A stretch of DNA of 64,000 nt from an uncultured SAR86 cluster bacterium (GTDB taxonomy: Bacteria; Pseudomonadota; Gammaproteobacteria; Magnimaribacterales; TMED112): positions 256,077 to 320,076 of the forward strand of contig CACATF010000001.1 in NCBI GenBank assembly GCA_902535365.1, written 5' to 3'. The translations under genes and the position numbers were made by a program. Each line of letters starts with the position of its first letter. Position 1 is the first letter of the stretch. This document shows positions 23,846 through 62,113 of this stretch, one piece after another. The notes beneath the pieces are model-generated. The model searched no databases. It was given only the letters and a program-made list of their open reading frames with translations, and was not told the DNA's origin.

Positions 23846-24622
23846 ATGAAAATTTCAGTAGTTAGTGGCGGTTTTGATCCTATCCATTCTGGCCACATTA
23901 GTTATATTAATGCTGCAAAAAAGTATGGTGAATATTTAATTATTGCTCTTAATAGTGATAAATGGCTTGTAGGAAAAAAAGGCAAAGCTTTTATGCCATT
24001 TGAAGAGCGCAAAGCTATTCTTGAAAATCTAAAGAGTGTAGATGAGGTGATTGATTTTGCTGATGATGGTAAGGGGAGTGCCATGAATGCACTTCACAAA
24101 GTAAAAGATAAATATCCAGACGCTCAAATTACATTTTGTAATGGGGGCGATCGAGGTAAGGACAACATTCCTGAAATGGAAGTTGAAGGCATTAATTTTG
24201 AGTTTAGTGTTGGTGGTGATGATAAGAAAAACTCAAGCAGTTGGATTCTTAAAGAATGGCAATATGAAAGTGAAGAGAGAATATGGGGAAAGTTTTATAA
24301 TCTATTCACTGATAACAAGGTTAAGCTTAAAGAACTGATTATCACTCCCGGCAAAGGCATGAGCTTGCAAAAGCATTTTTATAGAGATGAAATATGGTTT
24401 ATTTCACAAGGGGAATGCGTTGTTAATTTTTCTAAAGAAAGCCCAGAACAAATCAAAGAATTTCATTTGAAGAAACATGATAGTTTTAGTGTCAAAAAAA
24501 ATGAATGGCACCAGATTACTAATCCTTTTAATGAAGTATGCAAAATCATTGAAGTTCAGTATGGTGAAAAAACTGACGAGGACGATATTGAGAGGCATAG
24601 TTATTACAAAAACAATGAGTAA
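23846..24622 (+). CDS. Cytidylyltransferase-like domain fused to a sugar-isomerase-type cupin
   Basis: A 258-residue two-domain protein starting at ATG 23846. Residues 1-140 form a nucleotidyltransferase of the HxGH type ([14 protein letters not shown], then FEERKAIL), like RfaE2 and glycerol-3-phosphate cytidylyltransferase. Residues about 150-258 form a cupin resembling the C-terminal part of type II mannose-6-phosphate isomerases ([30 protein letters not shown]). The family suggests nucleotide-sugar or polyol activation, with the cupin acting on the sugar, but the substrate is unknown. A TAAAAT box lies 7 bases before the ATG. It lies between metK and ahcY and overlaps ahcY by 8 bases. Confidence 0.75.
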
Positions 24623-25973
24623 TTTTACAGATTATAAAGTCAAAGATATCTCTCTTGCAGAGTTTGGCAGACAAGAAATCCTGTTAGCACAAGATGAGAT
24701 GCCTGCACTTATGCAGCTTAGAGAAAAGTACCGAGCTGAGCAGCCTCTAAAAGGTGCAAAAATTATGGGGTGTATTCATATGACCATCCAAACAGCAGTG
24801 TTGATTGAAACCTTGATTGATCTTGGTGCTGAAGTAAGGTGGTCATCCTGCAATATCTTTTCAACTCAAGATCATGCTGCTGCAGCTATTGCTGCCAAAG
24901 GCATTTCTGTTTTTGCCTGGAAAGGCGAAACAGAAGAGGAATATGAGTGGTGTTTAGATCAAACCATCAATAAAGATGGTAAACCTTGGGATGCCAACAT
25001 GATTCTTGACGATGGCGGTGATTTAACCATTAAAGTACATAAAGAATACCCAGATATGCTTGAGCATATTCATGGGATTTCTGAAGAAACCACAACTGGC
25101 GTTAAACGCCTTAAAGAAATGCTTAATAATGGCGAGCTCAAAGTACCAGCTATTAATGTGAATGACTCTATTACTAAATCAAAAAATGATAATAAGTACG
25201 GATGCCGACACGGACTTGATGATGCAATTAAACGTGGTACAGATATGCTACTTTCAGGCAAGAAAGCTTTAGTAATTGGTTATGGGGATGTTGGTAAGGG
25301 CTCAGCAGATTCATTAATGCAGCAAAAAATGATTGTGGACGTAACAGAAGTAGATCCAATCTGTGCTATGCAAGCCTGTTTTGATGGATATTCAGTCGTT
25401 TCAGCTTACAAAGATGGAGATGTGGATGATAAAGGCAACAATATAGACTCAGAACTTCTTAAAAAATACGATCTTGTTGTCACAACTACAGGAAATGTAG
25501 ATGTTTTAGATAAGTTTATGCTTGATGCGCTTCGATCTGGATGTGTAGTCTGTAATATTGGTCACTTTGATAACGAAATTGACATCAAATACCTAAGAAC
25601 CTTTGATTGGTATGAAGTGAAACCTGGTGTTCACAAAGTTATTAAACCAAATGGAGATTATTTAATACTTTTGGGCGAGGGCCGTTTGGTTAATTTAGCC
25701 TTAGCAACAGGCCACCCAAGTAGAGTTATGGATGGTTCTTTCTGTAATCAGGTTTTAGCTCAAATTATGTTATTTAAAGATGGGTTCGCTAATAAACCAG
25801 AAGCTTACAAGAAACTTTATGTAAAAGTCTTGCCAAAAAAATTAGACGAAGAAGTGGCAACTCTAATGGTTAAGGGCTTTGGTGGAACGCTAACCAAACT
25901 TACAAAACAACAGCAAGACTATATATCTGTTGAAGAAGATGGCCCATTCAAAGGTGATTCTTATAGCTATTAG
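24615..25973 (+). CDS. ahcY: Adenosylhomocysteinase
   Basis: Hydrolyses S-adenosylhomocysteine to adenosine and homocysteine, relieving product inhibition of methyltransferases. The ATG at 24615 gives 452 residues starting [19 protein letters not shown], the normal N-terminus, whereas a longer reading from 24477 would add unrelated residues. The NAD motif [15 protein letters not shown], the ILDDGGD segment and the C-terminal YSY are typical. Its pairing with metK suggests a complete methyl cycle. No SAH or SAM riboswitch is visible upstream, where the preceding gene overlaps. Confidence 0.97.
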
Positions 25974-25991
25974 TTTAAAATAAAAAATTCA

Positions 25992-26065
25992 GGCTGAGTG
26001 GCAGAGTGGTTATGCAGCGGACTGCAACTCCGTGTACATCGGTTCGATTCCGTTCTCAGCCTCCA
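25992..26065 (+). tRNA. tRNA-Cys (GCA anticodon)
   Basis: A full cloverleaf can be drawn. The acceptor stem GGCTGAG pairs with CTCAGCC, the anticodon stem is CGGA/TCCG around the loop CTGCAAC, and the anticodon GCA is at 26024-26026. The T-loop is GGTTCGATTCC. The discriminator base is T, as expected for Cys, and the CCA end is encoded. It lies 18 bases after ahcY and 5 bases before the epimerase gene, marking the start of the polysaccharide region. Confidence 0.96.
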
Positions 26066-26070
26066 TTATT

Positions 26071-27015
26071 ATGAGAATTTTTGTTACAGGTTCTTCAGGT
26101 TTCATTGGTTTTCATTTAGTTAAAAAGTTACTAAATGATGGTCATAGTGTTGTTGGGATAGATGATCACAACGACTATTACAATCCAGCGTTAAAATTCA
26201 AAAGACTTTCTCTTCTAAATTCAAATAACTTTACATTTTATGAAACTGACATAAAAAGCCTCAATATAAAGGAATCTAATTTTGATTTAGCAATTAATTT
26301 AGCCGCCCAAGCCGGGGTTAGAGCACCACAAGAAAAACAACACCTATACAAACATTCAAATATTGATGGTTTTAAATCCTTTTGTAATTTTTGCAAAAAA
26401 AATAATATAAAAAAGATCTTATATGCATCCAGCAGTTCAGTATATTCAGAGATTAAAGAAGGGAAATTTTGTGAGGCAACAACTCCACTCAAACCTAAAT
26501 CAAAATATGGTGAATCAAAACTTTCAAATGAAATTTATGCCTCTAATTTTATTAAATCATACGATGCATCAATCATAGGTCTAAGGTTTTTTTCTGTTTA
26601 TGGGCCATTTGGTAGACCTGACATGGCGTATTATGCTTTTTCCAAAGCAATAAAAGACAAAGAAATAATTAATCTTAATAATAACGGCAACATGTACAGA
26701 GATATGACTTTCATAGATGATATTATTGACGGAATATTTGGAGCAATTGATTACGTTTATAGTGTTCAAAATAAAAATGAAATCTTTAATTTAGGCAATG
26801 ACAAACCAATTAAGACAAGTGACTTATTGAATAGAATTGAACAAATAATTGGCAAAAAAGCTTTAATTAAGCCTAATAAGACAGAAAACGAAGCATTTAA
26901 AACGCACGCTGATATTACTAAAGCAAAAAATTTATTAGGATATGACCCTAAAGTTTGTTTTGATGTAGGTATTGAAAGGTTTCTAGATTGGCATAGGCAT
27001 TATGAGAATATATAA
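26071..27015 (+). CDS. NAD-dependent nucleotide-sugar epimerase (UDP-glucuronate 4-epimerase-like)
   Basis: An extended SDR of 314 residues. The start is taken at ATG 26071, because a longer frame would run through the tRNA. It has the NAD motif TGSSGFIGFHLVKKLL, the segment DDHNDYYNPALKFKRL typical of CapI-like UDP-glucuronate 4-epimerases, a catalytic Ser in ASSSSVYS, and Tyr-x3-Lys in YGESK. It would supply UDP-galacturonate from UDP-glucuronate, which fits the dehydrogenase genes nearby. The exact sugar is inferred. It overlaps the next gene by 14 bases. Confidence 0.8.
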   Translation: MRIFVTGSSGFIGFHLVKKLLNDGHSVVGIDDHNDYYNPALKFKRLSLLNSNNFTFYETDIKSLNIKESNFDLAINLAAQAGVRAPQEKQHLYKHSNIDGFKSFCNFCKKNNIKKILYASSSSVYSEIKEGKFCEATTPLKPKSKYGESKLSNEIYASNFIKSYDASIIGLRFFSVYGPFGRPDMAYYAFSKAIKDKEIINLNNNGNMYRDMTFIDDIIDGIFGAIDYVYSVQNKNEIFNLGNDKPIKTSDLLNRIEQIIGKKALIKPNKTENEAFKTHADITKAKNLLGYDPKVCFDVGIERFLDWHRHYENI

Positions 27016-27865
27016 AAAATTAAAATTAGGAATAGTTGGCCATGGTTTTGTAGGGAAGGCTACAGATTGGGGATTTAATAAACGAATAAGTAAATTTATT
27101 GTGGATCCTTTGCTAGATACTAGTGTTAGTGATTTAAAAGATTTTGAACCAGAAATAGTATTTATATGTGTGCCAACACCCATGGGCGCTGATGGCAGTC
27201 AAGATTCATCAATTATTGAAAAGGTAATTAGAGAACTGATCCTGTATTGTCCAAATGCTATCAAGGTTGTAAAAAGCACAGTTTTGCCGTCTCTTCTAGG
27301 TAAGTTGCATAAATTAGATTCAAAACTAATTTATAACCCAGAATTTTTAAGAGAAAAACATGCGAACATCGATTTTATAAACTCTGATATGATTATTTTT
27401 GGTGGTGACAGAAATATTTCATCGCAAGTTTCAAATGCATACTTAAGACACTCAAGATGTAAAACAAAAGAGCATATTTTTACTGATCTTAAGACAGCAT
27501 CTCTGATTAAGTATTCCATCAATACTTTCTTAGCTTCAAAGGTGATATTTTTTAATGAGCTACATTCAATTTATGAAAAACTTGATGTAAAAGATAGTTG
27601 GGAATCAGTTGTTAATATAATTTCTCGTGATAATAGAGTAGGTGATAGTCATATGGATGTCCCTGGTCATGATGGTAGGAAAGGTTTTGGTGGTGCATGT
27701 TTCCCAAAAGATAGCTTAGCTTTAATTAAATTTGCTGAAAGCATGAATGTTGATTTAAATTCATTAATAGCGACTGTAAAGATAAATAATAAAATTAGAT
27801 CAGAATATGAGGAATTAGATTCAAGAGAATCAGAGCAAAATGTATCATTCGATGATAAAATTTGA
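27002..27865 (+). CDS. Short UDP-glucose/GDP-mannose dehydrogenase-like protein lacking the C-terminal domain
   Basis: A 287-residue relative of nucleotide-sugar 6-dehydrogenases. It keeps the NAD domain (GIVGHGFVGKATDWG, CVPTPMGADGSQD) and the central domain with catalytic cysteine (GFGGACFPKDS, about residues 229-239), but it stops where the C-terminal nucleotide-sugar-binding domain should begin. Full-length family members have about 390-420 residues, and one such gene is at 38103. The end is a clean TGA just before tRNA-Leu, so an independent short subfamily is as likely as truncation. Function as a dehydrogenase is unproven. Confidence 0.7.
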   Translation: MRIYKKLKLGIVGHGFVGKATDWGFNKRISKFIVDPLLDTSVSDLKDFEPEIVFICVPTPMGADGSQDSSIIEKVIRELILYCPNAIKVVKSTVLPSLLGKLHKLDSKLIYNPEFLREKHANIDFINSDMIIFGGDRNISSQVSNAYLRHSRCKTKEHIFTDLKTASLIKYSINTFLASKVIFFNELHSIYEKLDVKDSWESVVNIISRDNRVGDSHMDVPGHDGRKGFGGACFPKDSLALIKFAESMNVDLNSLIATVKINNKIRSEYEELDSRESEQNVSFDDKI

Positions 27866-27872
27866 CGCTATT

Positions 27873-27959
27873 GCCCAGGTGGTGAAATTGGTAGACACAA
27901 GGGACTTAAAATCCCTCGAAGGAAACTTCGTGCCGGTTCAAGTCCGGCCCTGGGCACCA
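27873..27959 (+). tRNA. tRNA-Leu (TAA anticodon)
   Basis: An 87-base class II tRNA with a variable arm. The acceptor stem GCCCAGG pairs with CCTGGGC, the anticodon stem is GGGA/TCCC around CTTAAAA, and TAA is at 27907-27909. The variable arm is CGAAGGAAACTTCG. The T-loop is GGTTCAAGTCC, the discriminator is A, and CCA is encoded. It sits 7 bases after one coding region and 4 bases before the next, inside the polysaccharide region and next to the RiPP cluster. Confidence 0.96.
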
Positions 27960-27963
27960 TGAT

Positions 27964-28440
27964 ATGAGAAAACAGCAAAATTTAGTTAAATTACAAAGAA
28001 TAGCTCATATGTTTTATAAAATTAGATATTTGCGCTTCATTGCAAGATTAATCGAAATTTTTATAAGGATAATTTTTTCAGCAAGAATACCTGCAAAAAT
28101 TGATTTGCCGAAAACAACCTTTTTTGCCCATAGTGCTCTAGGTGTAGTTATTAATGATAATTGTGAAATAAGAGATAATGTTTATATTGGAACTCATGTT
28201 GTAATTGGAGGTAACTCAAAAAGCATTGATGTTCCAATAATCAAGAGCAACTCAATAATTCATACTGGCTCAAATATCCTTGGACCTATAACTATTGGTG
28301 AGGGTTCGGTAATTGCTCCAAATTCAGTAGTTACTAATAATGTTGCGGCCAGTTGTCTAATGGCTGGTTCCCCAGCAATTATAAAAAAAGAAAACATTAA
28401 ATATGAGGACTACAGCCCATTTAGACAAATTGAGATTTAA
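27964..28440 (+). CDS. Hexapeptide-repeat acetyltransferase (serine O-acetyltransferase-like)
   Basis: A 158-residue protein with a left-handed beta-helix. Hexapeptide repeats such as VVINDNCEIRDNVYIGTHVVIGG and IIHTGSNILGPITIGEGSVIAPNSVVTNNV run from about residue 55 to 140. A basic, hydrophobic N-terminal segment of about 50 residues precedes them. The arrangement resembles serine acetyltransferase (CysE) and sugar O-acetyltransferases. The location favours acetylation of a sugar or lipid-linked intermediate. The gene starts 4 bases after tRNA-Leu. Confidence 0.7.
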   Translation: MRKQQNLVKLQRIAHMFYKIRYLRFIARLIEIFIRIIFSARIPAKIDLPKTTFFAHSALGVVINDNCEIRDNVYIGTHVVIGGNSKSIDVPIIKSNSIIHTGSNILGPITIGEGSVIAPNSVVTNNVAASCLMAGSPAIIKKENIKYEDYSPFRQIEI

Positions 28441-28446
28441 ATTTGT

Positions 28447-29640
28447 ATGAATGTTAGTTTCAAGTTAAAGTGCTTCATAATCAAAATCCTTAGTAATTCA
28501 GAAAGCATTGAGGATATAAGTTCATTCTCCAAACAAGAAATTAAAGACTTAATTAAAATCATTGTATTCAACAGGCTGGAAAGCTATTTTTATAATTATC
28601 TGAGTATTACTGAGGCTTGTAAAAATTCAATCTTAATAAAAAAAGAAATAAAAAAACCCCTTTTCAAAAGAAATATATGTACATTTAAAACCCTTGGTGC
28701 ATCTATAGGTATTTATAAACAGCTTAATAATGAAGGTATCAATTTTAGAATATTGAAGGGAGCATATTTGATAAATAAATTTAATTTAAAGCACAGGCAA
28801 ATTAGAGATTTAGATATCTTGGTTGATCCTTCAGATTTAGAGCAAACAATTTCTTGTGCAAAAAAAGCTGGGTATTATTTTTATGAAAAACAATCAAAGG
28901 ATGAATACCTTGATTTAGACCATAGGTATGCTTTACCTATGATGATTGATAAAGAAAACAACATTTTGGAAATTCACCATAGAATTACAGATCCTAAGAT
29001 ATTTCAAAAATGCAGCATTTCTGAACTAATTATGAAGGATCGAGAATGCCTTAGATTTAAAGATTATGAAATTCAGCATTCATCAATAGAGGCAAATTTT
29101 TGTCATATTCTATACCATGGCATCGGTAAGCAATTTATGGATTGCGGACCACAGTTTATAAATGATTTGATTCTACTATCTGGAGGCATCAATGATGGCG
29201 GTAAAAAACTTCAAAAGTTCATTCATCATGCAAAATTAGAAAAAGAGTTTTCATTGTTTGGTGCAATCTTGCAAAGATTTTCTGGATTAAAAATGGATTT
29301 GTATATGTCTCAATCAAATGTGCCAAAGCAAATCCTTGATGATGCCGCAAGTTTACTTATTTATAACGACTATAATCATAAAATGCTTGACTTATTTTTA
29401 AATAGATCAAACAAAGGCATCATTTTTCAAACTGCTCAAAAAATTTTCTCCAAATCATCAACCCAATCTCGTTATATGGTTAAATTAGATAAAAGAAATT
29501 ATTTTAGCTTTACAATCAAAAGGGTATTAGAACAAATAAAACACTATTCAATACCTTTTTTAAGATTATTTATGATGAATTTAACAACCAACAAAATAAA
29601 AAAATATTCTCTAATTAAACATTTTTTAAATAATGATTGA
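28447..29640 (+). CDS. PF14907-type nucleotidyltransferase linked to the lasso cluster
   Basis: A 397-residue protein. The core motif ILKGAYLINKFNLKHRQIRDLDILVDP (about residues 97-123) carries the Asp-x-Asp of the nucleotidyltransferase fold and matches the family NTP_transf_5, as I remember it. Members are common in lasso peptide and exopolysaccharide loci of Firmicutes and Proteobacteria. In the pseudomycoidin system, as I recall, a member adds sugar to the phosphorylated C-terminus of the peptide. That role here is inference. It overlaps the ABC ATPase gene by 8 bases. Confidence 0.72.
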   Translation: MNVSFKLKCFIIKILSNSESIEDISSFSKQEIKDLIKIIVFNRLESYFYNYLSITEACKNSILIKKEIKKPLFKRNICTFKTLGASIGIYKQLNNEGINFRILKGAYLINKFNLKHRQIRDLDILVDPSDLEQTISCAKKAGYYFYEKQSKDEYLDLDHRYALPMMIDKENNILEIHHRITDPKIFQKCSISELIMKDRECLRFKDYEIQHSSIEANFCHILYHGIGKQFMDCGPQFINDLILLSGGINDGGKKLQKFIHHAKLEKEFSLFGAILQRFSGLKMDLYMSQSNVPKQILDDAASLLIYNDYNHKMLDLFLNRSNKGIIFQTAQKIFSKSSTQSRYMVKLDKRNYFSFTIKRVLEQIKHYSIPFLRLFMMNLTTNKIKKYSLIKHFLNND

Positions 29641-30283
29641 ACTAGTTAATGTAAAAAAAAGTTTTGTAGATTTTAAGCTAAAAAATATTCTCATTGCACC
29701 AAAACAAAGAACCATACTTTCAAATATCAGTATAAAAATTGAAAACAATAAAGCTTATATTTTGCAAGGTAAAAATGGATCTGGCAAAACCACTCTTCTC
29801 AAATTAATAGCTGGTTTATTAAAGCCTGATGATGGAACTATTGAAACAGATAAAGATTATATATCTTCATATGTTTCTACTTCTGAACGTAGTTTTTTTT
29901 GGAGATTAACAGTTCTTGAAAACTTAATTTTTTTTAACAACCTAAATAAAAATGAAAACGTACAAAAAGAAATTATTTATGAACATTTAAACAAATATGG
30001 GTTGTCAAAATATTCAAATATTGAATTTATGAAATTGTCATCTGGCCAAAAAAGAAAAGTTTCAATCATAAGAGCATTGCTAAAAGATCCAGATTTATAT
30101 TTATTTGATGAAGTCTCAAATTCGCTCGATAAAGAATCAAAAGAAGACCTTATGCAATTTGTTAATGAAGCTTTAATTATTAATCAAAAGAAAACAATAA
30201 TTTGGGCCACACACGACTCCCAAGAAGAAAAAATAATTAATGGTGAAATTATCAAAATAAAGAAGGGATTTATACAACAATGA
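29633..30283 (+). CDS. ABC transporter ATP-binding protein of the RiPP cluster
   Basis: A 216-residue ABC ATPase: Walker A GKNGSGKTT (residues 46-54), signature LSSGQ (135-139), Walker B LYLFDE near residue 157, and switch His in WATHDS. It pairs with the permease gene downstream (4-base overlap). The position between the nucleotidyltransferase and the PqqD gene suggests export of the modified peptide. It differs from microcin J25 McjD, in which ATPase and membrane parts form one polypeptide. Confidence 0.88.
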   Translation: MIELVNVKKSFVDFKLKNILIAPKQRTILSNISIKIENNKAYILQGKNGSGKTTLLKLIAGLLKPDDGTIETDKDYISSYVSTSERSFFWRLTVLENLIFFNNLNKNENVQKEIIYEHLNKYGLSKYSNIEFMKLSSGQKRKVSIIRALLKDPDLYLFDEVSNSLDKESKEDLMQFVNEALIINQKKTIIWATHDSQEEKIINGEIIKIKKGFIQQ

Positions 30284-31116
30284 AGCTAGATATTAAAAGA
30301 GAGACAAATGAGTTATTTGCATTTCTTAAAAAAGACATGCTTATTTCAATAAGTTATAAAGCAAATATATTAAATTTTATTATATTTAGTATTTTTATAA
30401 TAAGTTTTATTTCTTTTTTTTCATCGGGTATTGAAACCTTGATTCCTTTTGAAACTTCAAACCAAAAAATAAGTATTTTTGGTTTCTTCTTAAGTGGAGC
30501 AATTATAGTTGAAACCTCACTCAGGTTAGTGAGCAGCATGACAGCTACAGTCCGTTTTTATCAAATGAGTGGAATAGTGGAAGAAATATTTTCTGAGAAA
30601 GATAGAAATGTGAGAAGAATCATTTATTCATCAACTTATAGTTCTTTGATAGCTCTCTCAAGAGTTATTTTTTATCTTTTGCTTGCAATTTTTATTGAAA
30701 AAGAGCTTTTTTCAAGTTTGGATCTTTACTCTTTATTAGCTAGCTGCTTATTTATAGTTGTTACATATTTTGGGCTAACTGGTATAGGCCTTATTGCTTG
30801 TAGTTATACAATATTATTCAAGCAAGGTAATTTAGTAATAACTATGTTCTTGATCGTCTCATTATTCTTTTCAAATAGTTTTTTTCTTGTTGATCAACTC
30901 CCGCCACAAATACAATTTGTTAGATACTTAAGCCCAATTTCATACCTACTTGATTATTTTAGAGATATAGATAAATTTGTTAGTATTCCGGCTAATTTCA
31001 ATGAAATATTTTTTCAAATCTTATTCATGAATATGATTTATTTTATTTTTGGAGTTATTAGTGTTAAAAAGGCAATTAATATTGCAAAAGTAAGAGGCAA
31101 CTTAATTTTTTATTAA
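30280..31116 (+). CDS. ABC-2 type permease of the RiPP cluster
   Basis: A 278-residue membrane protein with about six predicted helices (near residues 25-45, 63-85, 110-137, 145-172, 180-200 and 245-268). The fold looks like the ABC-2 permeases that export lipids, polysaccharides, drugs or peptides. No substrate motif can be read. It is translationally coupled to the ATPase and is followed after 6 bases by the PqqD-like gene, so it is most simply the peptide exporter. Confidence 0.8.
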   Translation: MKLDIKRETNELFAFLKKDMLISISYKANILNFIIFSIFIISFISFFSSGIETLIPFETSNQKISIFGFFLSGAIIVETSLRLVSSMTATVRFYQMSGIVEEIFSEKDRNVRRIIYSSTYSSLIALSRVIFYLLLAIFIEKELFSSLDLYSLLASCLFIVVTYFGLTGIGLIACSYTILFKQGNLVITMFLIVSLFFSNSFFLVDQLPPQIQFVRYLSPISYLLDYFRDIDKFVSIPANFNEIFFQILFMNMIYFIFGVISVKKAINIAKVRGNLIFY

Positions 31117-31122
31117 TACATT

Positions 31123-31383
31123 ATGAAATATAAAATATCTCCACAAATATTAATGACCAGTATGGATGGTGAGTCTATTATTTTAAATCGAGATACTGGG
31201 CAATATATAGCGCTAAATATTACAGCATCAACAATTTTTGAATGTATAAATGATGGCGTATCTGAGACCGCGTTATTAGAAAAATTAAAAAAAATATTTA
31301 AAGTTTCTAATAGCGATATCGAACAAGATACAAAAAACTTCCTAAAAGAATGTATCGAAAAAAAGATAGTATTTGTTGAATGA
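31123..31383 (+). CDS. PqqD-like RiPP recognition element (lasso B1 protein)
   Basis: An 86-residue PqqD-family protein: a beta-hairpin with GESIILNRDTGQYIALN, the ASTIFECINDG helix, and an acidic C-terminal helix with IEQDTKNFLKECIEKKIV. In lasso peptide systems the stand-alone PqqD domain (B1) binds the leader of the precursor and presents it to the peptidase. It is followed by a 4-base overlap with the B2-like gene, the usual B1-B2 order. Confidence 0.85.
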   Translation: MKYKISPQILMTSMDGESIILNRDTGQYIALNITASTIFECINDGVSETALLEKLKKIFKVSNSDIEQDTKNFLKECIEKKIVFVE

Positions 31384-31757
31384 ATGTATTTTTAATTAAA
31401 ATACAAATTTTTTTATATATTATTCTTACATCAATTTTTTTACGCATTCTCAGTTACCAACAATTAAATAAATTTATCAAAGGAAGTCCTTTTTTTATGA
31501 GTAGATCCAACCTATGTCAAAATGAATACTCAAAAATAGTTGAAAGACTTTCAAAAAAAATTAATGTAAACAAATGCTTTGTTAAGAGCATTGTTCTTTT
31601 TAAAGCACTAAAAAAAAATGGTTTTTGTCCACGTCTTATTGTTGGTGGCAGGTTTGTTGATTCAATTTACCATTCGCACTCATGGGTTGAACTGAAAGAG
31701 CAAAACTTGATATATCAAAACAAAGATGATTTTAAAGAAGTAATCAGATATACATGA
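31380..31757 (+). CDS. Transglutaminase-like leader peptidase (lasso B2 protein)
   Basis: A 125-residue protein of the Transglut_core3 type. The likely catalytic Cys66 lies in NKCFVKSIVLFKALKKNG, matching the C-x-x-x-S-x-x-L-x-x-x-L-x-x-x-G pattern of lasso B2 enzymes, and the catalytic His100 is in YHSHSWVEL, like the family HAWVE. An N-terminal hydrophobic stretch (residues 4-24) could anchor it. B2 cuts the leader after the residue following the conserved Thr and hands the core to the cyclase. It overlaps the next gene by 4 bases. Confidence 0.83.
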   Translation: MNVFLIKIQIFLYIILTSIFLRILSYQQLNKFIKGSPFFMSRSNLCQNEYSKIVERLSKKINVNKCFVKSIVLFKALKKNGFCPRLIVGGRFVDSIYHSHSWVELKEQNLIYQNKDDFKEVIRYT

Positions 31758-33676
31758 ACACCTTTTTCTTACATAGATCAAAAAATAGCCATCCGAATAA
31801 AGAAAGTTTTGATATTGAGCAGAAAAAAATCTTTGCTTATAGGGAGTATGATGAATTCTTCTCGTTTACACACAAAAAAACTTATGCATCATCATTTAAA
31901 AATTTAACAAAGAATAATGACAAAAAAAGATCAATTAATCAGATCTATAAGAGTGAAAATCTCATAGTTTTTTGCGATGCAGTTATAGAAAATTTAGATT
32001 TTATACTTGAACTTTTAAAGATTGATAAGTTGCTATCAAATGAAGAAATCTTTTTTTTGTTGTATAAAAAATATGACCAAGATTTTATAAAATATATTAA
32101 GGGTTCGTTTAATTTTCTAATAGCTGATCTCAAAAAAGATGAATATATTTTTGGGTCTGACAGGTTTTGCACTAAACCATTATTTTTCTCAGTTCAAAAT
32201 AATAATTTTTTTATTTCAACAGAAATTAAATCTTTCAAAAACCTAAGTATTTTTAATAAGTCACTTAATTATAAGACACTCTACAACCAGCTAGTGGTAT
32301 CATTTCAAAAGCCAGGGGAAACCTATTTCAAAGATATTTCTAAAGTTGAAAAAGCAACAGTATATGTATATAAAGATGGATTATTAAATTCAAAAAAATA
32401 CTACAAGCTTTCCTCCTTGGGAAAAACACAATTACCCTACAAGCAAACAATTGATAAAACTAGGGAATTATTTTTAAAAAGTGTCAAAGCAAATTGTTAC
32501 AGCAATACAAATGTAATTTCATCTATCACTAGTGGTGGCCTAGACTCATCGTCAATTACTGCTGCGTTATCTTATATTGACAGCAAAGAAATTAATTCTT
32601 ATTCGGTAAACTTCTCAGGCATTAGTAAGGAGGACTTTTTAAAAAGTGATGAAAGAAAATACATAAATGAAATAGCAAAATTTAAAAATGTATATCATGA
32701 ATTTTGTATTGCACATGAGGATGGTCCTTTTAGCTTTCAAGAGAGATTTGATCATGATCTTGACCAGCCACTTTTAAACGGCAATTATTTTTTTACAGAT
32801 TATATTTACCCTAAGGTCCGCCAAAATGGTGGAAGAATATTACTTGAAGGAATAGATGGAGACACTGTCCTCTCATATGGATTTGGTCATTTGATCGAAT
32901 TGGGTAGAAGATTAGAATTTTTTTCGGCATTCAAAAATTATCAAAAACTTTGCAAAGGAAGAAAAAGAAAGCCTACTGTATATGACTTTTTAAAAAGCAT
33001 AATTATAAAGCCAAATTTGCCTAGAAATGTAAATCAATTTCTAAGAAAAATTTTTGGGAAAGATACTTGGGAAGAAAGAAACCTTAAAAGGCTAAAAAAA
33101 TCATATCATCCAAAAAATTTACAATCATTAATTGACCATACATATGGTTATAAAAGAGGAATATTTATAAATTCTCAACAAAATCATTTAAACGAGATTA
33201 ATTCAAATATATGGGAATATATATTTTCATTCTCGTATGAAATTGCATGCTCATATGGTATTGAAGTAAGATTACCTTATTTCAATCAAGATTTAATTGA
33301 GCTTTCATTATCCCTTCCTTCAAATCTAAAATTTTCAGATGGTGTTGATAGGTATATTTTTAGAGAAGCGATGAAAGGTATTGTGCCTTTAAGTATTTTG
33401 AAAAAAACATCGAAGGCAGATTTAAGCTCATTAGGCAGAAATGATTTAAGAAAACATTCTAAAACCCTAATGAATTATTTTTCGAGCAACTCTTATAAAT
33501 TATATGGTGTAGTAGATAAAATATATATTGATAAATGCCTAAAATTTTTAACAAATGACAAGAATGGACATTTATATACATCTGTTTTGGCAGATCTTTA
33601 TGCAATTGAAAAGTGGCTTTCCAAAGAGGGTTTTGATATTGATATAGAAGAATTTTCAAAGTGCTCAAAAATATGA
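31754..33676 (+). CDS. Asparagine-synthetase-like lasso cyclase (C protein)
   Basis: A 640-residue relative of AsnB. Its N-terminal glutaminase-like domain begins MNTFFLH, so the nucleophile Cys2 of true asparagine synthetases is missing. The ATP pyrophosphatase loop SGGLDSSS (about residues 260-267) is intact, with DQPLLNGNYF and LLEGIDGDTVLSYG further on. Loss of Cys2 with a kept PP-loop is what lasso cyclases show: they adenylate the side chain of a core Asp/Glu and close a ring onto the peptide N-terminus. Its place right after B1-B2 and before the precursor supports this. Confidence 0.82.
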   Translation: MNTFFLHRSKNSHPNKESFDIEQKKIFAYREYDEFFSFTHKKTYASSFKNLTKNNDKKRSINQIYKSENLIVFCDAVIENLDFILELLKIDKLLSNEEIFFLLYKKYDQDFIKYIKGSFNFLIADLKKDEYIFGSDRFCTKPLFFSVQNNNFFISTEIKSFKNLSIFNKSLNYKTLYNQLVVSFQKPGETYFKDISKVEKATVYVYKDGLLNSKKYYKLSSLGKTQLPYKQTIDKTRELFLKSVKANCYSNTNVISSITSGGLDSSSITAALSYIDSKEINSYSVNFSGISKEDFLKSDERKYINEIAKFKNVYHEFCIAHEDGPFSFQERFDHDLDQPLLNGNYFFTDYIYPKVRQNGGRILLEGIDGDTVLSYGFGHLIELGRRLEFFSAFKNYQKLCKGRKRKPTVYDFLKSIIIKPNLPRNVNQFLRKIFGKDTWEERNLKRLKKSYHPKNLQSLIDHTYGYKRGIFINSQQNHLNEINSNIWEYIFSFSYEIACSYGIEVRLPYFNQDLIELSLSLPSNLKFSDGVDRYIFREAMKGIVPLSILKKTSKADLSSLGRNDLRKHSKTLMNYFSSNSYKLYGVVDKIYIDKCLKFLTNDKNGHLYTSVLADLYAIEKWLSKEGFDIDIEEFSKCSKI

Positions 33677-33683
33677 GTTTTTC

Positions 33684-33711
33684 TTGCACTTTTCTTAAAT
33701 TGCTGTAACAT
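33684..33711 (+). promoter_or_regulatory. Possible promoter for the lasso precursor gene
   Basis: In the only real gap of the cluster, TTGCAC (33684-33689) and TAACAT (33706-33711) are separated by 16 bases. The precursor ATG is 8 bases further on, and no ribosome binding site is visible. A separate promoter would allow the peptide to be made in excess over its enzymes. Confidence 0.35.
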
Positions 33712-33719
33712 TTGACAAT

Positions 33720-33860
33720 ATGAAATGGGAAAAACCAGAAATTAGTTATTTAGGAAGTCTGCAAGAGCTCACAAACATGCCATCTGGCGAGGGCGACACA
33801 AAAGACTTCGGATTCAATGATGGAGAAGTATTTTCAGGTAATCCTATTGGTTCAACATAA
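33720..33860 (+). CDS. Lasso-type RiPP precursor peptide
   Basis: A 46-codon gene between the cyclase and the kinase. The leader fits the lasso pattern without a gap: Trp3-x2-Pro6-x-Ile8-x3-Gly12-x5-Thr18. By the rule that Thr is at position -2, the core starts at Met20 and has 27 residues. Asp26 would then be core residue 7 and is the only acidic residue at positions 7-9, giving a seven-membered ring. Cleavage at another site (Asn19, Pro21 or Ser22) would give rings of 8 (Asp26), 9 (Asp29) or 8 (Asp29) residues. The core is rich in Gly, Asp/Glu and Phe, and it ends Gly-Ser-Thr, a fitting target for the kinase encoded next. Confidence 0.8.
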   Translation: MKWEKPEISYLGSLQELTNMPSGEGDTKDFGFNDGEVFSGNPIGST

Positions 33861-34748
33861 TTGCTAAACCATCATTATAGGCACCTCGGTTTAAAAATAA
33901 CCTCAGATTCAAAGCTTCTTTTTCTTGAAGAAGGCAATCATTGTAGTTCAGGTGCTCAAATCATCATATTAAATAAGGAAAATCTTAAAAGTAAAAGAAA
34001 AAACAATACATCTACGTGGGTATTCACTGCAAATCACAAAAAGATAGAAATTTACAAGAAGGGCATATGCTTTATAGAAATAATTAATGGCAGGGAGATC
34101 CACTACAAAAAATTAGGCAAATTTAATAATATTGATTTTTCTAAATTTATAGCAAATTTAGTTTTTGGCTATCTTCTTTTTCAAAGAAAAGAAATTGTAC
34201 TGCATGCATCATGTGTTTCTAAAAATGGAAAAGCAATATTATTTTGTGGTCCTAGTGGAAGTGGAAAGTCAACTTTGGCTGCCCAACTTTTGTCAAAATT
34301 CAGTTTTATGTCTGAAGACTTATCATATTTAATAAAAAAGAAGAACCAAATTTATGTATCATCTTCTATCCCGTTCATAAAATTGGACCCTAAAATCTCT
34401 AGCTTCATAGAATGTCAAAATAAGTATATTTTGCAGAGCGATCAGTATAAAAGAGATTTTTGTGAAGTTTCTAGCCATCATTCAAAAAATACTGCAGAAG
34501 TAAATAAAATTATTTTCTTAAAATGGGGAACAAAAGACAAATTTTATAAACCGTCAATTAAGGAAGCTTTAATACTCTTCATTAATAATACATTTAAAAA
34601 AATTCCCTATTCCCCAAGTTCTGAACATTCCATAAAAATATTTCACTTCTTCAAAAAACTGAATGAATCATCTGAACTTTATGTTCTAATGCGAAAAAAG
34701 GAAGAAAAAATAGCAAATGGAAATGATTTTTTTGATACAATGATTTAA
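33861..34748 (+). CDS. HPr-kinase-like protein, candidate lasso peptide C-terminal kinase
   Basis: A 295-residue protein starting at TTG immediately after the precursor stop. It has the HprK-type P-loop CGPSGSGKSTLAAQLL (core Gly130-Thr138), preceded by LHASCVSKNGKAILF, the usual context in this family. In paeninodin-type lasso clusters an HprK-like kinase phosphorylates the C-terminal Ser of the precursor. Here the precursor ends Ser45-Thr46. The N-terminal 115 residues are unlike HPr kinase itself. No ribosome binding site is visible, so translation may depend on reading through the precursor gene. Confidence 0.75.
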   Translation: MLNHHYRHLGLKITSDSKLLFLEEGNHCSSGAQIIILNKENLKSKRKNNTSTWVFTANHKKIEIYKKGICFIEIINGREIHYKKLGKFNNIDFSKFIANLVFGYLLFQRKEIVLHASCVSKNGKAILFCGPSGSGKSTLAAQLLSKFSFMSEDLSYLIKKKNQIYVSSSIPFIKLDPKISSFIECQNKYILQSDQYKRDFCEVSSHHSKNTAEVNKIIFLKWGTKDKFYKPSIKEALILFINNTFKKIPYSPSSEHSIKIFHFFKKLNESSELYVLMRKKEEKIANGNDFFDTMI

Positions 34749-61462: not shown

Positions 61463-62113
61463 ATGAAGAGTGTATTAGTTGTCTATTCAGGAGGCTTAGA
61501 TTCCTATACCTTGCTAAATAAGGCTCTGAGTTCGTTCGAGAAAGTGGAAGCCATTACTTTCAACTATGGTCAAAAACATAAAATTGAAATTGAATATGCC
61601 AAAGCAGCATGTGAGAAGTTGGGTATTGCTCACGAAATAGTAAATTTAGATCTACAAAAAATTTTAGCTGGGTCAGCTTTAGTAGGTGATAGCGATATTC
61701 CAGAAGGCAACTATGACAAAGAAAAAATGAAACAAACAGTTGTCCCAAATAGAAATATGGTAATGATTTCAGTGGCAGCTTCACTAGCAATAAAAAATGA
61801 ACTCGATTACTTATGGTACGCAGCACATTCTGGTGATCATGAAATCTATCCGGACTGTCGGCCTGAGTTTATTGCGAAAATGGCTGAGGTTCTTTCAATC
61901 TGCGATTACCATAAGATCAATTTTGAAGCACCTTTTCAAGATCTTTCAAAAGCTGAAATTATCAAAGTTGGTTTAGATATGAATCTAGATTACAGCAAGG
62001 CTTGGACTTGCTATGAGGGCAAAGAAAAACCTTGTGGTAAATGCAGTGCCTGTTTAGAGAGAGCAGCTTCATTTCAGGCAATCCAGGTTAACGATCCACT
62101 AGATGAGCTATAG
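61463..62113 (+). CDS. queC: 7-cyano-7-deazaguanine synthase
   Basis: Converts carboxydeazaguanine to preQ0 with ATP and ammonia, in the queuosine pathway. The 216-residue protein has the PP-loop VYSGGLDSYTLL at its N-terminus, VPNRNMVMISVA in the middle and the zinc cysteines in CYEGKEKPCGKCSACLERA near the C-terminus. It overlaps queE by 11 bases. queD and queF are not in the window. Confidence 0.96.
   Translation: MKSVLVVYSGGLDSYTLLNKALSSFEKVEAITFNYGQKHKIEIEYAKAACEKLGIAHEIVNLDLQKILAGSALVGDSDIPEGNYDKEKMKQTVVPNRNMVMISVAASLAIKNELDYLWYAAHSGDHEIYPDCRPEFIAKMAEVLSICDYHKINFEAPFQDLSKAEIIKVGLDMNLDYSKAWTCYEGKEKPCGKCSACLERAASFQAIQVNDPLDEL

Follow-up and report, generated by a model that had tools for sequence, protein, structure and literature searches.

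The lasso-peptide gene set of Bradymonas sediminis (Bsf; A, B1, B2, C, D, K and N) yields a phosphorylated precursor (PMC10368454). In Bacillota, paeninodins and linear polyphosphorylated peptides (LPPs) are placed in capsule loci and have a patchy spread (PMC13381572). The N protein of pseudomycoidin attaches a hexose to the phosphate (PMC8498205), and all four residues of the His-Lys-Asp-Asp kinase motif are essential by mutation (PMC9266682). Here we describe a locus at positions 28447–34748 of a 64,000-nt stretch of DNA (hereafter the window) from an uncultured SAR86 cluster bacterium of the order Magnimaribacterales (contig CACATF010000001.1). We read this locus as a working operon for a lasso peptide that is tailored by way of phosphate, and give that reading a probability of about 0.8. 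It is carried by the gene set, the catalytic motifs, a conserved precursor and, among close relatives, purifying selection.

The locus consists of eight + strand genes, seven for enzymes and transport plus a 46-aa precursor open reading frame (ORF), in the order PF14907 nucleotidyltransferase (N), ABC ATPase (D1), ABC-2 permease (D2), B1, B2, C, precursor (A) and HprK-like kinase (K). A preliminary description, made from the DNA sequence, had listed a complete same-strand gene set with a short precursor, and every one of its features was recovered in place. The overlaps of 4–8 bases that it had noted are those of N with the ATPase gene (8 nt) and of the ATPase/permease, B1/B2 and B2/C pairs (4 nt each). 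The other junctions are gaps of 6 nt (permease–B1), 43 nt (C–precursor) and 0 nt (precursor–kinase), and 60 nt separate the kinase gene from wzc. No terminator-like site was found in the operon interior, and a promoter scan of the locus gave matches at chance level only. The genome (0.93 Mb, 16 contigs) has a single PqqD-family gene and a single Transglut_core3 gene, both in the cassette. It also carries a rhodopsin gene, which, with the ∼1-Mb genomes of the order, makes the small marine gammaproteobacterium suggested earlier a plausible host.

Of the 203 genomes available for the order (∼1 Mb each), eleven have the cassette, window included, and its sequences are divergent. All eleven cassettes contain C, the kinase, B1, the nucleotidyltransferase and the precursor; the ten with full context also contain B2 and the split exporter. 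B2 was thus present in ten of the 203 genomes, the window among them, the eleventh cassette being interrupted by a contig end. Gene order is variable, with N on either side and the ABC pair relocated in one cassette (L016). The preliminary description would have counted relatives that keep the enzymes and have no precursor as evidence against its lasso reading; the precursor is kept in all eleven, as an ORF of 42–50 aa between C and the kinase gene.

Profile searches placed B1, B2 and C nearest to the lasso families to which they had been assigned (B2 with a sub-threshold score), which, together with the universal precursor, upholds the original lasso-type reading. For B1, described as PqqD-like, PF05402 and NF033536 were the best models, and the best sequence match in the PDB was TbiB1 (5v1u), a lasso recognition element for ribosomally synthesized and post-translationally modified peptides (RiPPs), with TfuB1 also among the best. 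B2 scored below both curated cut-offs (23.5 versus 26 for Pfam and 27 versus 33 for NCBIfam). Nine of its relatives exceed the PF13471 cut-off, however, and therefore support the assignment. Cys66 and His100, picked out earlier as the notable residues of B2, are invariant in 10 of 10 aligned homologues, as are Gly89 and Trp102. The AlphaFold2 (AF2) model of B2 (mean predicted local distance difference test score, pLDDT, 87.7) had Cys-protease/transglutaminase-like neighbours at Z 4–6 in VIA-align, values that we counted as supportive only, and a Foldseek search of the model against the PDB gave no match at E ≤ 0.001. The modelled fold is consistent with a Cys-protease/transglutaminase-like arrangement. 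C begins MNTFF, so is without Cys2, and has an intact PP-loop (SGGLDSS), as had been described; all ten complete C homologues likewise have no Cys2 and keep SGG(L/I)DSS. The lasso cyclase model NF033535 was the top NCBIfam model for C, with a score (Table 1) below its narrow cut-off of 525 bits.

The identification of an HprK-like kinase and a PF14907-type nucleotidyltransferase was also borne out. Although Pfam and NCBIfam place K only weakly with HprK-related kinases, the K profile matches HprK among PDB sequences (E 1.6e-7) and its AF2 model has the HprK/PEPCK fold; N matches NTP_transf_5. The window K retains His115, Lys136 and Ser137. Its acid pair, however, is Glu-Asp, as in 11 of 11 cassettes of the order, versus Asp-Asp in 14 of 14 outside relatives (six named cassettes, from cyanobacteria, Rokubacteria, Rubrobacter and Omnitrophota, and eight same-class kinases) and in HprK itself. 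In a close pair of cassettes, L017 and L018, every gene has a dN well under its dS, and so does the kinase gene (dN 0.13, dS 0.80), i.e. the kinase is under purifying selection. From these sequences, the kinases of the order are probably active with an altered catalytic acid. A homologue of N occurs in 11 of 11 cassettes with the motif LKG...R..D(I/L/V)D(I/V)L mostly conserved and, by analogy with its relatives, would be a putative catalyst of sugar or nucleotidyl transfer onto the peptide phosphate. The ABC exporter noted earlier gives PF00005 and PF01061 matches and is split into two genes; homologues of D1 and D2 form a split ABC-2 pair in all ten cassettes with full context. Most of the cassettes examined outside the order have a fused ABC exporter of ∼600 aa, and multi-gene transporters are known from actinobacterial lasso clusters, e.g. 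that of sviceucin (PMC9266682).

The leader of the window precursor reads WxxPxI, and its Pro and Thr stand at −14 and −2. No other small ORF of the 64 kb has the leader motif (0.05 expected in Markov windows), and a homologue of the precursor lies at the same place in 11 of 11 cassettes; it is therefore not a chance ORF. Across the order the leaders follow [W/Y]xxPx[I/V], mostly with xxLG thereafter, and have Pro at −14. The −2 residue is Ile in eight and Val in two, with Thr seen only in the window. Ile(−2) has been demonstrated experimentally for BsfA (PMC10368454), and the window and its sister cassettes span both leader types (Thr or Ile at −2) within one enzyme clade. Each of the eleven precursors has Ser or Thr among its final three residues, and six end in one of the two (Thr in the window), as expected for C-terminal phosphorylation; Ser45 and Thr46 are the candidate sites in the window. 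Ser3 of the core, the position targeted by BsfK, is present in the window and not in every homologue. A Scytonematopsis cassette (L038:9770-12030) has a large ORF between C and the kinase gene, along with a pair of lasso precursors that are nearly identical.

The cores are of two kinds, and this split corresponds to the two halves of the C tree (support 85/94). Five short cores have [N/D]Vxxx-G-x-G-D followed by a tail of 9–12 residues, a pattern that fits a nine-residue ring predicted to close at Asp9, the sole acidic residue of the L020 core. Asn is the predicted ring residue 1 in three of them, for which metanodin is the one precedent (PMC12670498). In the six long cores, window included, 3–8 additional residues precede a comparable nine-mer (window, D-T-K-D-F-G-F-N-D; L015, DPKIIGTGD; L017, DPKVPGGGD), in a register aligned by eye over six sequences, two of them near-copies. 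Their last conserved Asp (after Gly) lies 12–17 residues past the canonical cleavage site, with a Lys 6 residues before it in five of the six and 7 residues before it in the other. An acidic residue at positions 7–9 is found in the window and L015 (Asp7), in L021 (Glu7) and in the five short cores (Asp9). After the canonical cut, the window core has Asp7 and Asp15, and its SGEGD at positions 3–7 resembles the ring end of the short group; a seven-residue ring closed at Asp7 would be the conservative choice.

Table 1. Features of the cassette and its immediate flanks (window positions)
Feature	Position	Strand	Evidence
tRNA-Leu	27873..27959		
Serine-acetyltransferase-like gene	27964..28440		
N, PF14907 nucleotidyltransferase	28447..29640	+	Pfam NTP_transf_5 E 2.9e-20
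D1, ABC exporter ATPase	29633..30283	+	PF00005 E 1.6e-25
D2, ABC-2 type permease, split exporter	30280..31116	+	PF01061 E 4.8e-9
B1, PqqD-like RiPP recognition element	31123..31383	+	PF05402 E 1.1e-11; top NCBIfam model lasso_PqqD NF033536
B2, transglutaminase-like leader protease	31380..31757	+	PF13471 and NF033537, both sub-threshold
B2 catalytic codons Cys66; His100	31575-31577; 31677-31679	+	alignment
C, AsnB-like lasso macrolactam cyclase	31754..33676	+	PF00733 E 6e-30; NF033535 235 bits
A, precursor MKWEKPEISYLGSLQELTN-MPSGEGDTKDFGFNDGEVFSGNPIGST	33720..33860	+	leader motif; homologues in 11/11 cassettes
Predicted core	33777..33857	+	counted from leader motif and 10 homologues; boundary inferred
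Candidate ring acceptors Asp7; Asp15	33795-33797; 33819-33821	+	window core
K, HprK-like peptide kinase, TTG start	33861..34748	+	PDB profile match, AF2 model, alignment
K residues His115; GKS 135-137; Glu152-Asp153	Glu152-Asp153 34314-34319	+	alignment
wzc	from 34809		

By analogy with the studied relatives, each reaction step can be given a likely agent. B1 would bind the WxxPxI motif of the leader, and the kinase would phosphorylate Ser or Thr of the linear precursor, most likely Ser45/Thr46 and less probably Ser3 of the core. B2 would cleave after Asn19, and C would adenylate an Asp side chain and link it to the new N-terminus around a threaded tail. The phosphate would receive another group, probably a sugar, from the PF14907 protein, and secretion of the product would fall to the split ABC-2 exporter.

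Several observations weigh against this scheme. The lasso product is a prediction from the genes. Kinase activity is not assured, because Glu replaces an Asp of the mutation-tested motif. For the six long cores, the alignment leaves both the first ring residue and its acceptor in doubt; L016 has no acidic residue at 7–9, and L017 (Glu5/Asp6) and L018 (Asp6) have theirs earlier, before Asp14. B2 was found only in metagenome-assembled genomes (MAGs) less than 90% complete and in 0 of 40 better ones, a restriction that could be chance. The divergent sub-threshold B2, the exchange of Glu for Asp in the kinase and the confinement to MAGs might even suggest a decayed or mis-binned cluster with no present function. 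We find this hardly credible, as the frames are all open, catalytic residues are kept, close pairs have dN values well under dS, and flanks are collinear in congeners; the window cassette itself sits in a contig of 454 kb that matches the congeners in gene order on its left flank. It is also very improbable that the kinase, PqqD, AsnB-like and acetyltransferase proteins belong to a surface-polysaccharide pathway, in which they would modify the polysaccharide or a peptide linked to it and no lasso would be secreted. The flanks of the window cassette, with tRNA-Leu and an EpsC-like acetyltransferase gene on one side and wzc on the other, would suit such a role, as would the HprK-rel A/B and PEP-CTERM amidotransferase families among the weaker matches, but six of the eleven cassettes adjoin unrelated genes (S41 protease, DUF305, amidohydrolases, CysS, Fpg) and keep the full set, the NCBIfam lasso families are top for B1 and C, and the precursor is universal.

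Two further alternatives concern the product. LPP clusters also have B1, K, N, an exporter and capsule loci (PMC13381572), and several of the present cores have an unclear ring residue, so that the product might be a linear polyphosphorylated peptide with the cyclase dispensable or otherwise employed. LPP clusters have no cyclase, however, and use a SipW-like signal peptidase, whereas no signal peptidase was found among the cassette genes in a Pfam scan, and B2 and C are present in ten of ten complete cassettes with their catalytic residues kept and under purifying selection; we regard an LPP-like product as improbable. For the long group, including the window, a branched-cyclic or enlarged macrolactam (a ring of 12–17 residues, or one closed by the Lys amine) in place of a classical lasso is unlikely, though rather less so. 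The spacing of the conserved Asp and Lys and the match between core type and C-tree half speak for it, but the published description puts ring closure in lasso peptides at position 7–9 (PMC10368454), the window has an ordinary Asp7, and a nine-residue ring of the ordinary kind, starting at Asp, would result from a second trimming or from cleavage at a shifted site. A wider proposal for the long-core half (window included), which we offer tentatively and with considerable doubt, is that its members form something beyond the classical lasso of 7–9 residues, either a 12–17-residue macrolactam at the conserved Asp or, by two-step leader removal in which the 3–8-residue spacer is trimmed, a nine-residue ring, and that the Glu-Asp kinase and nucleotidyltransferase add a phospho-sugar, perhaps linking the peptide to surface polysaccharide.

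The C proteins of the eleven cassettes form a clade (support 96), as do the kinases of the order (99% SH-aLRT). Within the genus, C proteins are ∼22–28% identical to the window C, L017 and L018 being a near pair to each other. The window's family is not grouped in the C tree, where three changes are needed and L035 stands firmly with another family (100/100); this scatter suggests transfer or differential loss. The precursors of L036:11215-11346 and L037:7201-7332 are 81% identical versus 45–62% for their enzymes, the reverse of the usual core variability, which argues that the peptide product itself is under selection. On the preferred reading, as a phosphate-tailored lasso operon, it is in all likelihood an accessory module of the order that diverges fast, present in 11 of 203 species at differing points of shared genomic frames. 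Such a pattern would be expected if the product served in conflict or in interactions at the cell surface.

Searches beyond these cassettes gave little. C matches in other genera of the order (L022-L024) were ordinary AsnB-like genes with no B1, B2 or K alongside, and a weak B2-like match in G050 was discarded (E 5e-4, three stops). A single-protein search with C found none on viral contigs, and 16 viral-contig matches from a profile search were set aside as having no B1, B2, kinase or nucleotidyltransferase profile match. Plasmids gave distant AsnB relatives only, at 21–22% identity among the matches listed.

The frame SAHH–tRNA-Cys–epimerase–UDP-sugar dehydrogenase–tRNA-Leu (24477–27959) is common to the congeners, the UDP-sugar dehydrogenase being 69–86% identical in the four closest. 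Differing genes are inserted on either side of this frame among congeners, as in a hypervariable surface-polysaccharide island. The cassette follows tRNA-Leu and the acetyltransferase gene in the window, lies between SAHH and tRNA-Cys in G008, stands beside tRNA-Cys in G027 (another family), is on a different contig in G007 and is lacking in G019. A second integration site, beside an S41 tail-specific protease and a DUF305 locus, is common to G007, G018 and probably G004; L016:5769-7718 and L017:10887-12836, from different species, share this junction. Three other cassettes are beside amidohydrolase, CysS or Fpg/OEP genes. The surface-polysaccharide setting of the preliminary description therefore holds for the window but for only ∼5 of the 11 cassettes. 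Its tRNA-Leu and wzc flanks are both there, with the serine-acetyltransferase-like gene intervening between tRNA-Leu and the cassette. This EpsC-type gene ends 6 nt upstream of the cassette and was rejected as a candidate tailoring enzyme, since none was seen adjoining any other cassette; in G008 the corresponding position behind tRNA-Leu is taken by an ORF of equal length with no detectable similarity to it. A second short Asn_synthase-type match (61472–61660) lies in a 216-aa ORF, and another just past the window end; both are probably polysaccharide amidotransferases.

Natural-product operons are unexpected in streamlined ∼1-Mb ocean bacteria, and here one order has a lasso cassette in which the enzymes fall to 20–30% identity within a genus while the precursors remain recognisable. 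Its sites are variable, a surface-polysaccharide island among them. The poorly understood phosphate-tailored lasso type would thereby extend to abundant ocean plankton, and a second, distant lineage with a Bacillota-like capsule setting offers an independent comparison for its role (PMC13381572). Both the kinase motif change and the core boundary are accessible to direct testing with small synthetic genes. The cluster had been called unreported; we found no open-access paper on lasso clusters in SAR86, subscription papers and antiSMASH-type databases being outside the search.

Compared with the described systems, the locus combines familiar parts in a different form. Metanodin, compared here by residue 1 and host only, is a gammaproteobacterial lasso peptide of an uncultivated host (PMC12670498) and the first with Asn at residue 1, where the window core would have Met, or Asp if trimmed. 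LPP clusters share B1, the kinase, the nucleotidyltransferase and the capsule-locus setting (PMC13381572) and differ from the window in having neither cyclase nor B2. The window is like paeninodin and pseudomycoidin in its WxxP leader and its kinase with a PF14907-type nucleotidyltransferase (PMC8498205, PMC9266682, PMC13381572), but these belong to another phylum and have His-Lys-Asp-Asp where the kinases of the order have His-Lys-Glu-Asp. Four points are additions to the preliminary description: the splitting of the ABC-2 exporter as a variant, the Glu-Asp pair of the kinase, Thr as against Ile at −2, and the uncertainty over the ring residue. The Bsf cluster has the same A, B1, B2, C, D, K and N set, and its HprK-like kinase phosphorylates (PMC10368454). 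Its Ile at −2 is that of most precursors of the order, unlike the Thr of the window; its target Ser3 recurs in the window core; its ring, unlike that of the window, is predicted to close at Asp8; and its kinase has Asp-Asp rather than Glu-Asp, with an exporter that is not divided into ATPase and permease genes. The PF14907 protein and C-terminal hydroxyl of the paeninodin/Bsf subfamily are thus found here without its His-Lys-Asp-Asp motif, and the kinase probably works like the paeninodin/Bsf type while standing, by motif, outside that subfamily.

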